From an uncultured Fretibacterium sp. (GTDB lineage: Bacteria; Synergistota; Synergistia; Synergistales; Aminobacteriaceae), in the NCBI GenBank assembly GCA_946183145.1, contig CAMGZM010000011.1, forward strand, positions 26,043 to 90,042: DNA of 64,000 nucleotides. The letters run 5' to 3'. The position numbers were made by a program, and so were the translations under genes. Below the pieces are notes generated by a model. The model saw nothing but the letters and a program-made list of their open reading frames with translations, did not search any database and had not been told where the DNA came from. Of the stretch, positions 25,521 through 33,389 are shown in pieces; positions within the stretch are counted from its first letter, which is position 1; the number at the start of each line of letters is the position of its first letter.

Positions 25521-26162
25521 ATGGATGACTTAGCAATTATAGACATGGCCGCGAATGAATCGAATCCAAACTTGAGTCTCATGGATAAAAATATCATTCT
25601 CATAACGGGTATAACGGAAGCAAATATCAACTCAGCAATCAGAGCCGCAGAGTCATCAACATCATCTGAAAATGTAACTGTCGGAATCATAGCAGGCAAT
25701 ATCAATCCGCTGAACAAAAACATGAAAAGGCTTTCAGAACTTGCAGACGCGGTAATAATTTCGCGGGGAAATTTTGAGGACTCTTCACGGATAATCACGG
25801 AAGCAATTTCAGACATCATCACAAAATTCGGGTTCGTTAATCTCGATATTGAGGACGTAAAAGAGATTTTCAGGGACGCAGGAACGGTATATTACGGTGC
25901 AGGTACGGCTAAATCTGCGGGAGTCGCAGCCCTCAAAGCCTCCGAAATGTGCGGGGACATAACGAACGCAAAAGGATTCCTACTCAGCATAATATCAGGT
26001 GCGGAATTTCCTTTAAGCGAAATGACAGAAGCAGCACACGTTATCGAGGGCAATGCAGACCCGGACGCGCAAATAATCTGGGGACATGTGATTGATGAGA
26101 ATATGAGCGGGAATGTTAGAGTGTCAGTTTTCGCGGCCATGAATGACAAAGTGAGGCCGTAA
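25521..26162 (+). CDS. truncated FtsZ-like protein lacking the N-terminal nucleotide-binding half
   Basis: Alignable by eye to the FtsZ second half: AISDIITKFGFVNLDIEDVKEIFRDAGTVYYGAGTA...AKGFLLSIISGAEFPLSEMTEAAHVIEGNADPDAQIIWGHVIDENMSGNVRVSVFAA. Confidence 0.75.
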   Translation: MDDLAIIDMAANESNPNLSLMDKNIILITGITEANINSAIRAAESSTSSENVTVGIIAGNINPLNKNMKRLSELADAVIISRGNFEDSSRIITEAISDIITKFGFVNLDIEDVKEIFRDAGTVYYGAGTAKSAGVAALKASEMCGDITNAKGFLLSIISGAEFPLSEMTEAAHVIEGNADPDAQIIWGHVIDENMSGNVRVSVFAAMNDKVRP

Positions 26163-26164
26163 AT

Positions 26165-29014
26165 ATGTCAGCGGTGAAAATTATTGACCTGTCGAAAGGT
26201 GAAAGGCTGTATGATGTTAAGGAGTCAGATTTCATCATCATAACGGGCATAACAGAATCGACTCTCAATGACGCAATCACAATCGCAGAATCAGCGCGTG
26301 AATCAGGAGCCGTAACAATCGGAATCCCGGCGGGAAATCATGACGTGAAGAGATTTGCCGATGTTGCTGACGCTGTAATATTCTCACATGATGAGTCAGA
26401 GACTTCACGGGGAATCGCAGAAGAAATTTTAGACAGGGACGGCGATATTTTCGACATTCCGACAATGAGAGACATGTTCAGGAACGCGGGAACGGTGCAT
26501 TACGGCACAGGGAGCGGCGATGACATGGAGAGCGCATTACGCAAAGCCGCCGAAATGTGCGGGGATATTCACGGCGCAAAAACAGCCTTTGTGAAAATGT
26601 CATTGCCTCCGTCAGAAAAGGGTTTCGATGAAGTTCGCATAATAGACGACATACTCAAAGAATTTTGCGGTGATGATGTCAGCACTTGTTTCCCAAACAT
26701 ACTCATTGCGGACGGAAAAATCACGGCAAAAATTTTTGCGCTCATGTATGACGCTGGTTATACGAGCTGGCGCGAACTCTTTGCGAATGAAAGCGCAGAG
26801 AACATCACGGCCATGATTGAGAACGGACTTGACGAGCGCACAAGAACAAGGCTCGGCACGGAAAAATCATTCTTTGCGGCCTGTCTGAGATTCGGAACAC
26901 CTGAGCTTGTCAGAAAATTCATCAGCAAAGGCCATCACCCTAAAGAGCTTGAGACTGACGGAATATTTCCCGGAGATGTATTAGCTGACTGCCTCATGAA
27001 CGACATTAAAGCGCGCAATACCGGCATGACTGATATACTTTTGGAGTCTGGTATTTCCCTCGGTGAACACTGCGTAAAGGCTCTCGCTCCGTCGCTGAGG
27101 AATCCGAAAATCCTTCAGGCTTTCATCAATTACGGCTGGAACGTAAATTCACGTGATGAAAAGGGAGCTAACTTTATGTTTTATGCGGCGGCTGAATGTT
27201 CATATGAGTGCGTGAAACTTCTCGCTGAAGCAGGAGCTGACGTTAACGCACGGCGCAAGAAGGGATATACACCGCTTATGATTATGATGATTAATTGCAG
27301 CAATGACGCAGACACAGCGCACGAAATCCTGAAATACCTTCTCGCAAACGGAGCAGACATTAACGCCACAGCCGATGACGGCACAACACCTTTAACGCAG
27401 GCTGCGACATGGATATATTCACACCCTGATATAGTACGCACGTTCCTTAACGCAGGGGCGAATGTGAACGCAGAATTTACTGACGGTAATGGAGGAAGAT
27501 TATCCGTTCTTGATATTATGTTTGCGTCGTCCGTTTCTGTTTTCTCAGAGCCGGAAGAAAAACAGATATTTCTGCGTGAAGTCCTGCCCATGATGATTAA
27601 TGCCGGAGCAAATTTCAGCCCGTCCGAATCTCAGTCCCGAATCGATAATGAATACGGTAAAAAATATGAAGATTTCAGCCGCAACTGGAAGAGTCTTCTG
27701 ACTGACCCCGCAAACAAACCTCACGCGCTCAGGCTTTTTTGTGATTCGATTGCGGAATATGACACCGAAACCGTAAGGGGAATCATTGAGCGAATATCCC
27801 CTGAAAAAATTGTACCCGATTGCGGCGAATCTCCGTCAGAATTTCTCAGAATGTCAGCAAAACTCGCATTCAGGATTAACGATTTCCCCGAATCAGTGAG
27901 CAAACCTTCAGCACAGAACACAGAGATAAAACGCAGACTCGATAACGGAGCGGAGATTCTCAGAATCCTTCATGAAGCCGGAATCACATGGCCTCTTGTC
28001 CTCCCTGAAAGCACCGAATTAACGTACGTCATCAATGAAGAGTGGAAGCCGCGAAAAAAGATTGACGAAATGAATCCGTTAAGCCTCTGTCATTCGCCTG
28101 AAGCCCTGAAGAAAGTTATTGCCTCCGAGAAATATAACATGACTGACGCGCTGAAGGAAATTGCCGGGAGTTGTGAAATCTACTATCAGCCCGGAGAAAT
28201 GATGAATGTATTGCTCGCTAACGGCGCGGATATTCACGCTTTGAGTGATACGTGGATCGGCGAATGTCTTTCACACAGGGGAAAAATTCTCATGCTCGAC
28301 AACTTTCAGCAGGCAAAATTCATGGCCGAAATTTTCAGGAAGCATAACCTCTCAGACATAACCACCGTCAGCAACACACAGCATTATGACGGATGGGAGG
28401 AATATTACGGAGAGCCGCTGAGCTGTCATATGCTGAGTCATCTTTGGGAGATGATAGAGTCAGGAACAGACAACGCCGGAAAATGGGCAAAATTCCGGGA
28501 TGTGATGATGTTATTGTCGGCCTGCCGGGGGAATGTGAATGACATTGAGGACGCAATCAATCACGGCGGAAATATCAACTATTCAACGTGGCTCGGATAT
28601 ACTCCGCTGATGTACGCTGCTGTCTTCAACGACTCAGAGGCCGTAAAATTCCTCATCAAGAACAGAGCAGACATTAACGCCCGCAACATTCACAATCAGA
28701 ATGCCGCAATGCTCGCTGTTACGTCAGACTACAACGCACGGGACTCAAACGTGATTCGAGTCCTCGCTGAATTTGGAGCTGATATTCACAACGGCTTGAT
28801 GACTCTTGCTGTTGACGCGGGAAATGTTGACGCGGTGAAAGTTCTTCTCTCATTGGGCGCGAAATTGCCGGGGCAAAACGCAGTGAATAATCCTGAACCC
28901 GAAACGAGAAACGAGAAGCCCTGCCCGAAATGCGGAAGGATTTTAGAGCGCAGAACTTCTTACTGCCCCTCATGCGGGTATGTTCTCACGGTCAGTGAAA
29001 GGTATGGAAAGTGA
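26165..29014 (+). CDS. FtsZ-like half domain - ankyrin repeats - C-terminal zinc ribbon fusion
   Basis: N-term DFIIITGITESTLNDAITIAESA and MRDMFRNAGTVHYGTGSGDDMESALRKAAEMCGDIHGAK paralogous to the preceding ORF; ankyrin repeats (GYTPLMIMMINC, GADINATADDGTTPLTQAA, GYTPLMYAAVFNDSEAVKFLIKNRADINARN); CPKCG...CPSCG tail. Confidence 0.75.
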   Translation: MSAVKIIDLSKGERLYDVKESDFIIITGITESTLNDAITIAESARESGAVTIGIPAGNHDVKRFADVADAVIFSHDESETSRGIAEEILDRDGDIFDIPTMRDMFRNAGTVHYGTGSGDDMESALRKAAEMCGDIHGAKTAFVKMSLPPSEKGFDEVRIIDDILKEFCGDDVSTCFPNILIADGKITAKIFALMYDAGYTSWRELFANESAENITAMIENGLDERTRTRLGTEKSFFAACLRFGTPELVRKFISKGHHPKELETDGIFPGDVLADCLMNDIKARNTGMTDILLESGISLGEHCVKALAPSLRNPKILQAFINYGWNVNSRDEKGANFMFYAAAECSYECVKLLAEAGADVNARRKKGYTPLMIMMINCSNDADTAHEILKYLLANGADINATADDGTTPLTQAATWIYSHPDIVRTFLNAGANVNAEFTDGNGGRLSVLDIMFASSVSVFSEPEEKQIFLREVLPMMINAGANFSPSESQSRIDNEYGKKYEDFSRNWKSLLTDPANKPHALRLFCDSIAEYDTETVRGIIERISPEKIVPDCGESPSEFLRMSAKLAFRINDFPESVSKPSAQNTEIKRRLDNGAEILRILHEAGITWPLVLPESTELTYVINEEWKPRKKIDEMNPLSLCHSPEALKKVIASEKYNMTDALKEIAGSCEIYYQPGEMMNVLLANGADIHALSDTWIGECLSHRGKILMLDNFQQAKFMAEIFRKHNLSDITTVSNTQHYDGWEEYYGEPLSCHMLSHLWEMIESGTDNAGKWAKFRDVMMLLSACRGNVNDIEDAINHGGNINYSTWLGYTPLMYAAVFNDSEAVKFLIKNRADINARNIHNQNAAMLAVTSDYNARDSNVIRVLAEFGADIHNGLMTLAVDAGNVDAVKVLLSLGAKLPGQNAVNNPEPETRNEKPCPKCGRILERRTSYCPSCGYVLTVSERYGK

Positions 29015-32318: not shown

Positions 32319-32360
32319 TCAAAACTGACATTCACGAAGCAAGTATAGGAGGAGCATTGT

Positions 32361-33389
32361 ATGTTATATCGTTACAATGAGGGGCGAATTATGCCTGTGC
32401 CTTACTGCGATTATTCAGAGCTTCAGGGCCGCGAAAAGGATTTAGAGAATCTTCTTGCTGCTTATCTTGAAGATTTGTACGCGGAAGGCGGTCAGTCATT
32501 CATGCCGATCTTTCAGGAAAGGGCAATGCAGGAAGAACCAGATATTTGCGCTCTTGACACACAGGGCGGTCTTGTGATTTTCGAGCTGAAACGCGGCAAT
32601 GCAGGAAGGGGAGCTGTTGAGCAGATTATGAGATATGCCGAGCTTTTCGGCAAAAGAGATTATGACCAGTTGAACAGCATGTACAGAACGTATATCAATG
32701 ACAGCAACGCTGAACTCAAAAAGGCTCATGCTGATGCGTTCGAGCTTCCTGCACCATTAAGCGATGAGTCTTTCAACCGCAGACAGAAACTTGTCATTGT
32801 GGGAAATTCCGCAGACAGAGATTTGATGAATGCTGTCGATTACTGGAAAAACCAGGGCATTGACATTGATTTTCTACCTTACCGTTTTTACAGGATAGGA
32901 GATGAGATTTACTTCGAGTTTTTCGCCAAGCCGTATGATTATCACATGAATCCCCGCGCAAAAAAGGGCATACTGTTCGATACAAATTTGAGCTGGTCTG
33001 ATGACAATGAAAAATGTATGCTTGAAAGAGGTCATATAGAAGCATACGGCGGTGTCAAATGGGCTGTTGACAGTTTCTCGAAAGGTGATTACGCGCTCTT
33101 CTACTCAAAGGGCAGGGGAGTTATTGCTATAGGTGAAATTACATCACGTGAAGCAAGATAACTTCACGGTGCAGAAGATGCCGATGACGGGCGTTATCAT
33201 GAAGTAAAAATGATTGTTCCGCAGAATGTCTCAGGTTCAGACGGCTATAATCAGAGCCTGTATCCTTATGAGATAAAAACTTTGCTTGATCAGGGCTTCT
33301 ATTTTGCAAGGACAGACAAGAGACCGTACCTTAGTGAAGAACAGGTGAAAATTCTCATTGAGGCATTGAGGAAAAAATACAACGCTTAA
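32361..33389 (+). pseudogene. NucS/DUF91-like PD-(D/E)XK endonuclease gene interrupted by in-frame TAA (33159-33161)
   Basis: EEPDICALDTQGGLVIFELKRG catalytic motif; coding-like frame continues past TAA: LHGAEDADDGRYHEVKMIVPQNVSGSDGYNQSLYPYEIKTLLDQGFYFARTDKRPYLSEEQVKILIEALRKKYNA. Confidence 0.65.

Follow-up and report, generated by a model that had tools for sequence, protein, structure and literature searches.

A stretch of 64,000 nucleotides from contig CAMGZM010000011.1 of an uncultured Fretibacterium sp. (Synergistota, GCA_946183145.1; genome size 2.55 Mb), hereafter the window, encodes a block of genes in which shortened relatives of the division protein FtsZ ("FtsZ-halves") occur with nuclease-like proteins and a WYL regulator. 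Compared across related genomes of this rumen genus, the set resembles a phage-defence or growth-arrest module of a kind not described before. Judging from the sequences, its genes recur together, with nucleases that are exchanged between copies and an upstream DNA element that the copies share. We put at about even the chances that this is an immune or growth-arrest module based on FtsZ mimicry. In it a GTPase-dead paralog with an intact synergy-loop face would serve as bait for phage inhibitors or as a trans-acting FtsZ poison, and a single WYL regulon would connect it with interchangeable partners, namely PD-(D/E)XK nucleases, ankyrin proteins or an IetA-like ATPase. In the open-access literature we came across no account of a defence system or division regulator based on such a protein, an FtsZ without its GTPase but with the docking face retained. 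The genes that form the core of the module are as follows.

25521..26162, plus strand: FZ1, FtsZ-half of 213 amino acids (Pfam FtsZ_C, 5e-15)
26165..29014, plus strand: FZANK, 949 amino acids, degenerate FtsZ-half followed by ankyrin repeats and a C-terminal zinc ribbon (Pfam Ank_2, 1e-31; zinc ribbon weak)
29045..30238, plus strand: PD-(D/E)XK nuclease-like protein, PDDEXK_4 / PDC-S26 (Pfam PF14281, 8e-29; PADLOC PDC-S26, 6e-62)
30242..31213, plus strand: WYL-WCX transcription regulator of 323 amino acids (Pfam WYL, 4e-10; WCX, 8e-17)

FtsZ-halves retain the synergy loop and have lost the GTP-binding motifs

FZ1 consists of a truncated pseudo-Rossmann part, a helix, a synergy (T7) loop with the sequence NLDIED, and the FtsZ C-terminal domain. 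It lacks the beginning of the GTPase domain, and neither of the GTP-binding loops, GGGGGN and GGGTG(S/T)G, that mark a functional FtsZ GTPase is present; the synergy-loop pattern N-x-D-x-x-D and the C-terminal domain of FtsZ can both be recognized. The protein stops right past this domain, at residue 213, and has no C-terminal tail for partners of the FtsA/ZipA type. The genome encodes one true FtsZ elsewhere (a 444-amino-acid frame on contig C9), with which FZ1 shares 43% identity over 127 residues. An AlphaFold2 model of FZ1 has a predicted local distance difference test score (pLDDT) of 92 and a predicted template modelling score (pTM) of 0.89, and the best 50 matches listed for it in the PDB are all FtsZ (TMq 0.66-0.80). 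By its sequence FZ1 is an FtsZ paralog from which the GTP-binding motifs are gone, whereas its C-terminal domain and its catalytic synergy loop persist; the model has an FtsZ fold.

The N-terminus of FZANK is homologous to FZ1. The original prediction of two FtsZ-halves thus stands insofar as both proteins carry FtsZ C-terminal domains without GTPase motifs, although the half in FZANK is degenerate and has lost the loop.

We aligned 27 halves with 35 true FtsZs to evaluate which residues are retained. None of the 27 keeps the full GGGTGTG motif. The synergy-loop residues (numbered as in the organism's own FtsZ) persist as N214 in 23/24, D216 in 24/26 and D219 in 24/26 halves, and E280 in 25/26. 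Of the halves that align at these four positions, 92-96% have the residue. The remaining polar positions of the C-terminal half that are invariant in FtsZ have a median retention of ~0.24, most of them lying at 0-52%; only H302 and D305 additionally exceed 80%. A rank test for the four positions gives p=0.002, a value to be read with the caveats that the sequences are related rather than independent and that the positions were picked after inspection. In a tree of the C-terminal domain the halves form a single clade near the FtsZ of this genus, with moderate support (~0.91) and long branches.

The ratios of nonsynonymous to synonymous substitution (NG86 dN/dS) are 0.267/0.641 (~0.42) for FZ1, 0.157/0.352 for FZANK, 0.147/0.458 (0.32) for PDC-S26, 0.050/0.549 (0.09) for WYL and 0.063/0.758 for true FtsZ. 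By this measure the module genes are under constraint, and the FtsZ-halves, the ankyrin protein and the nuclease evolve faster than FtsZ and WYL.

The WYL regulator links FtsZ-halves to varying nucleases

The WYL protein, which had been recognized in the original prediction and is confirmed by both of its Pfam domains, is the most conserved protein of the module. Its named relatives come from rumen Synergistaceae metagenome-assembled genomes (MAGs) and one uncultured Fretibacterium MAG, which places the window in a genus of this family represented mainly by MAGs. Its putative DNA-binding N-terminus has no Pfam match and is assigned by homology, the PADLOC WYL profile aligning from residue 10. 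Gene models in this and all other comparisons are our own open reading frame (ORF) calls with uncertain start codons, and many loci of relatives lie on short MAG contigs.

At all 13 loci with readable context that encode WYL orthologs of at least 67% identity, the gene adjoins an FtsZ-half, its ankyrin part, or PDC-S26; in 3/13 the contig ends before the expected position of the FtsZ-half. Two further orthologs (61-64% identity; G067 and G066) lie where their contigs end and tell nothing about context, and homologs near 50% identity, located by ankyrin genes that have no clear FtsZ part, were left out of the count. At L095-L098, WYL relatives of ~46-53% identity have ankyrin-repeat genes (PDC-M72A-like) close by, mostly in divergent orientation and with no FtsZ part that can be clearly recognized; these loci may represent a sister system with ankyrin proteins only.

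The gene 3' of WYL is nuclease-type in nine of the 13 loci, and its family varies between genomes. It is PDC-S02 plus PDC-S11 in the window, Mrr_cat in G041 and G001, PDDEXK_4 in G039 and G008, and YhgA/Rpn-type in G013; in G011, G031 and G038 it belongs to an uncharacterised family whose D...ExK motif is invariant. For this last, 464-amino-acid protein the nuclease label rests on the motif, the structure model being poor (pLDDT 53). Mrr_cat genes number only ~2-4 per genome as background. In two of the remaining loci the gene weakly resembles uracil glycosylases, and in the other two there is nothing.

PDC-S26 matches its profile across the nuclease domain, in line with the nuclease originally proposed at this position. 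Its homologs of at least 41% identity lie in the module at 6/6 loci, one of which (L031) encodes PDC-S26 fused in a single reading frame to an FtsZ-derived N-terminus; more divergent homologs (35-37%; G038 and G001) are solitary and were not counted as module parts. A two-domain AAA ATPase is found in 7/43 genomes and stands beside an FtsZ-half in 7/7, a linkage that in G017 and G010 was made across contig ends; the genome of the window has no such ATPase. Among named families this protein matches the anti-phage ATPase IetA best, at 121 of 510 bits, which is below the NCBIfam cut-off.

A 15-bp element precedes module genes at unrelated sites

The upstream regions of modules at unrelated sites have in common a 15-bp element, CAC(C/T)TTATATTTGCG, which in relatives precedes FtsZ-half, AAA and nuclease genes. 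The window contains a divergent copy.

25459..25473, plus strand: CACCTTAAACTTGCA, copy of the 15-bp element with 3 mismatches, 47 bp before FZ1

Within the loci compared the element, at no more than 2 mismatches, is located upstream of 8/19 module genes versus 1/796 other genes (Fisher p ~1e-13, an optimistic value because the consensus was drawn partly from the same genes). Occurrences independent of the derivation of the consensus are those in the AAA and WYL promoters of G033, in the AAA promoter of G017, and 64 bp upstream of a PDC-S11/PDC-S02 operon unlinked to the module (G033, L191). Genome-wide, 18 matches were counted versus 29 in a reversed control. With no genome-wide excess, the signal of the element is its location, not its count. 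We regard it as a candidate operator or promoter element. A palindrome search at the FZ1 promoter returned a single 6-bp perfect inverted repeat (TATCAT/ATGATA), and matches in sigma-70 and terminator scans were no more frequent than in shuffled sequence. One exact copy of the element (L200:644, on contig C26 of G033) has no module gene behind it; its flanks resemble the G017 AAA promoter, and it looks like a remnant.

Insertion site and state of the nuclease genes

From 25521 to 33161 our ORF calls place seven tightly packed plus-strand ORFs, with gaps counted from 25521 of 2, 30, 3 and 25 bp, so the tight block originally described is real. Downstream of WYL, and around the block, lie the following features.

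31257..32318, plus strand: broken PDC-S02 (Mrr_cat) nuclease gene (Mrr_cat, 3e-10; PADLOC PDC-S02 on both pieces)
32361..33389, plus strand: broken PDC-S11 (NucS-like) nuclease gene (NucS_C, 1.5e-6; PADLOC PDC-S11, 2e-20)
25384..33433, no strand: whole island, between flagellin (minus strand) and aldo-keto reductase (minus strand)

The ~8 kb of genes between flagellin and aldo-keto reductase are opposite in strand to both neighbours. The flanking genes are flagellin/hemB on one side and aldo-keto reductase on the other; the first description had flagellin and hemB right, but the nonribosomal peptide synthetase that it gave as a neighbour lies beyond the aldo-keto reductase. In seven relatives (G002, G027, G005, G039, G021, G019 and G017) flagellin directly adjoins aldo-keto reductase, and no module is present. 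Related modules occupy the region in G016, G011 and G041, and an FtsZ-half only does so in G023. Further modules in relatives are located at different genomic sites, and because relatives hold the same module at other places it is not a chance assembly.

The conserved core stops at the end of WYL (31213), and PDC-S02 and PDC-S11 are strain-specific cargo. FZ1, FZANK, PDC-S26 and WYL are intact in this genome, whereas neither cargo nuclease is encoded by one intact ORF. An in-frame TAG at 31710-31712 splits PDC-S02 into an ORF of 157 amino acids (31239-31712), whose PDC-S02 match is weak (E 0.006), and an Mrr ORF of 187 amino acids (31755-32318); an unbroken homolog of 346 amino acids is encoded at L191 of G033. 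PDC-S11 is interrupted by an in-frame TAA at 33159-33161, where the G033 homolog has Glu, and its frame continues open to 33389. A frameshift in the NucS-like gene was considered and ruled out, the lesion being an in-frame stop. The Mrr-like and NucS/DUF91-like genes of the original prediction therefore belong to the families proposed, but the former is half of one split gene and the latter is interrupted, so that two of the three nuclease-like genes are broken; both are probably dead in this genome.

The unlinked operon of G033 (L191:1279-1749) carries a PDC-S11 with an internal deletion. Several relatives likewise have a single in-frame stop in a module gene, namely the FtsZ-half in G015 and G011 and WYL in G001 and G031; these stops may reflect frequent genuine inactivation or assembly error. 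The modules of G041 and G016 are unbroken in the sequence compared. In another part of the window (19350-21073), two multi-pass membrane genes that resemble one another are adjacent; of these, the second falls into two ORFs, at 20543-21073 and 20267-20527, and looks broken.

FtsZ-halves outside the module

At least one FtsZ-half is encoded in 21/43 genomes of this Synergistaceae genus, and none is apparent outside the genus among the matches listed in a search of 188 genomes of the phylum. Most genomes of one other Synergistota family (f8) returned two FtsZ matches, the extra ones apparently being full-length second FtsZ genes. No FtsZ-half was found in phages, plasmids or viral contigs; the incomplete matches in these sets appear to be true FtsZ genes, with less than 80% of FZ1 covered in every case.

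A separate class consists of proteins of 139-144 amino acids with little beyond the FtsZ C-terminal domain, without WYL and mostly without nucleases; the loop is mostly intact. Four of them (L035, L036, L037 and L042, in G022, G010, G021 and G019) are located beside a gene for CstA (carbon starvation), and these short proteins are a second radiation of FtsZ-halves without WYL. Therefore, not every FtsZ-half is part of a defence system. The original prediction comes through the check that had been set for it, that halves consistently free of nucleases would speak against it: the WYL-linked halves recur with nucleases, although the FtsZ_C-only class is mostly nuclease-free.

Two other arrangements were seen. 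In G003 an FtsZ-like duplicate of 297 amino acids (L043:3018-3911), with GGSTGSG in place of GGGTGTG, lies directly before ftsZ in the division gene cluster, and in G034 and G032 (L044 and L045) an FtsZ-half gene directly follows an RlmN-like radical-SAM gene.

Discussion

The reading we favour, tentatively and at somewhat less than even odds, is that of a WYL-controlled, mobile-type conflict module in which an FtsZ mimic would halt division by acting on FtsZ. Some WYL proteins sense single-stranded DNA. A signal of damage or infection would switch on the operon via WYL, and FZ1 would cap the cellular FtsZ by docking with its synergy-loop face on the GTP face of that protein, possibly completing GTP hydrolysis in trans while filament growth is blocked. 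Division would be halted while one or more nucleases attack invading or cellular DNA, and the effectors may be gated by a protein partner to which the ankyrin part binds. A growth-arrest effector role of the FtsZ-half, as originally suggested, is plausible on this evidence. Consistent with such a module are the retention of the loop residues, the FtsZ fold, the dN/dS values, the linkage to WYL (13/13), the nucleases that follow WYL (9/13), the ATPase beside FtsZ-halves (7/7), the shared motif, the empty sites, and the precedents of DriD-DidA and of SulA and MciZ.

Several observations weigh against it. In the immediate neighbourhood we recognized no defence system of proven function, and a defence role is proposed here by gene association only. 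The cargo nucleases are broken in this genome, the synergy-loop motif is lost from FZANK and its G041 ortholog, and the L031 fusion retains the loop with most of the FtsZ C-terminal domain missing. FtsZ-halves without WYL occur, and no copy that would show mobility turned up on phages, plasmids or viral contigs. A passive cap, moreover, need not keep the catalytic aspartates. The conflict island first proposed for this locus gains from the recurrence of WYL-linked halves with nucleases, the one PDC-S26 fusion, the empty site in seven relatives, and partners that match PADLOC candidate-defence families and, weakly, IetA, but it does not extend to every half, given the FtsZ_C-only class without WYL and mostly without nucleases.

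Parts of the module have counterparts in known systems. FtsZ itself (PF12327 C-terminal domain; TIGR00065) has the same fold, and its C-terminal domain, helix and synergy loop are homologous to those of FZ1. Unlike FtsZ, FZ1 has no GGGTGTG/GGGGGN or C-terminal tail, the N-terminal half is truncated or degenerate in the halves, and TIGR00065 scores 70 bits against a cut-off of 295. FtsZl1 and FtsZl2 are, as here, divergent FtsZ relatives with extra domains; they were identified via the GTP-binding motif, and FtsZl1, without similarity to the FtsZ C-terminal domain (PMC2875224), is the mirror image of the FtsZ-halves. Caulobacter likewise pairs a WYL regulator, DriD, with a division inhibitor, DidA, which DriD induces (PMC4211646), the inhibitor of the present module being a proposed one; DidA, in contrast, is a small membrane protein that acts on FtsW/I/N and no FtsZ mimic, and that pair has no nuclease module. 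SulA and MciZ, as described in PMC13423816, act at the synergy-loop face of FtsZ, the same inter-subunit interface as proposed for FZ1. They are unrelated proteins that bind this face, whereas FZ1 carries it and would bind the opposite GTP face.

WYL regulators control defence operons in the case of BrxR and CapW (PMC9122601, PMC9122588) and there, too, adjoin varied defence-type genes, a likeness by description and not by sequence comparison; unlike that type, the shared element here is no clear palindrome. The partner genes match PADLOC families PDC-S26, PDC-S02 and PDC-S11, which are unproven candidates. IetAS combines the IetA ATPase with the IetS protease, and the likeness noted here concerns the ATPase, in relatives, below the curated cut-off.

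A close rival, though somewhat less probable, is that the FtsZ-half is bait, imitating the FtsZ surface that phage inhibitors attack; binding of an inhibitor would free a co-encoded or fused nuclease, ankyrin or ATPase partner and lead to abortive infection, or the half would merely soak up the inhibitor. The face predicted to be bound by T7 Gp0.4, from AlphaFold3 and genetics, is the synergy-loop face of FtsZ (PMC13423816), and the halves retain both this loop and the C-terminal domain. The CapRel-Ebc system already builds defence logic around that face, since its immunity is triggered by the FtsZ-Gp0.4 complex (PMC13423816); CapRel, however, senses the cell's own FtsZ bound by the phage protein and uses the CapRel toxin, whereas in the present module a protein of its own, encoded alongside, carries the FtsZ face, and nucleases are present instead. 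Strict retention of the catalytic Asp residues suits mimicry, as do the fusions of halves to nuclease and ankyrin domains and their fast evolution relative to true FtsZ. On the other hand, no phage FtsZ inhibitor is known for this genus, the partners vary from module to module, and free halves occur without a nearby effector. The retained aspartates slightly favour bait or a trans-acting activator of hydrolysis over a passive cap. The gene set alone does not separate a poison or cap from bait, and we rank the poison or cap first.

Rather unlikely, in our view, is a domestic role, in which the genus would use FtsZ-halves to regulate its own Z ring under stress or starvation and the nucleases would be hotspot neighbours. 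The short FtsZ_C-only proteins beside cstA, the copy beside ftsZ in the division gene cluster (L043), and the confinement of the family to one genus (among the phylum matches listed) would fit this idea, but WYL-linked halves recur with differing nucleases at differing sites and the patchy presence of halves is unlike that of core regulators. That the halves are functionless FtsZ duplicates decaying in a genomic hotspot is very improbable: nonsense codons in PDC-S02, PDC-S11 and some relatives point that way, but dN/dS is well below 1, frames are intact across hundreds of codons, loop residues are kept site-specifically and the architecture is recurrent.

Should the halves act in immunity, effector-triggered immunity, in which the cell guards a division protein, would be extended to a built-in imitation of that protein, and the question whether attack on FtsZ is common among phages could be put to a direct test. 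If the halves have no part in defence, a naturally occurring piece of FtsZ that may cap filaments or poison them would still be useful for studying FtsZ polarity and turnover.

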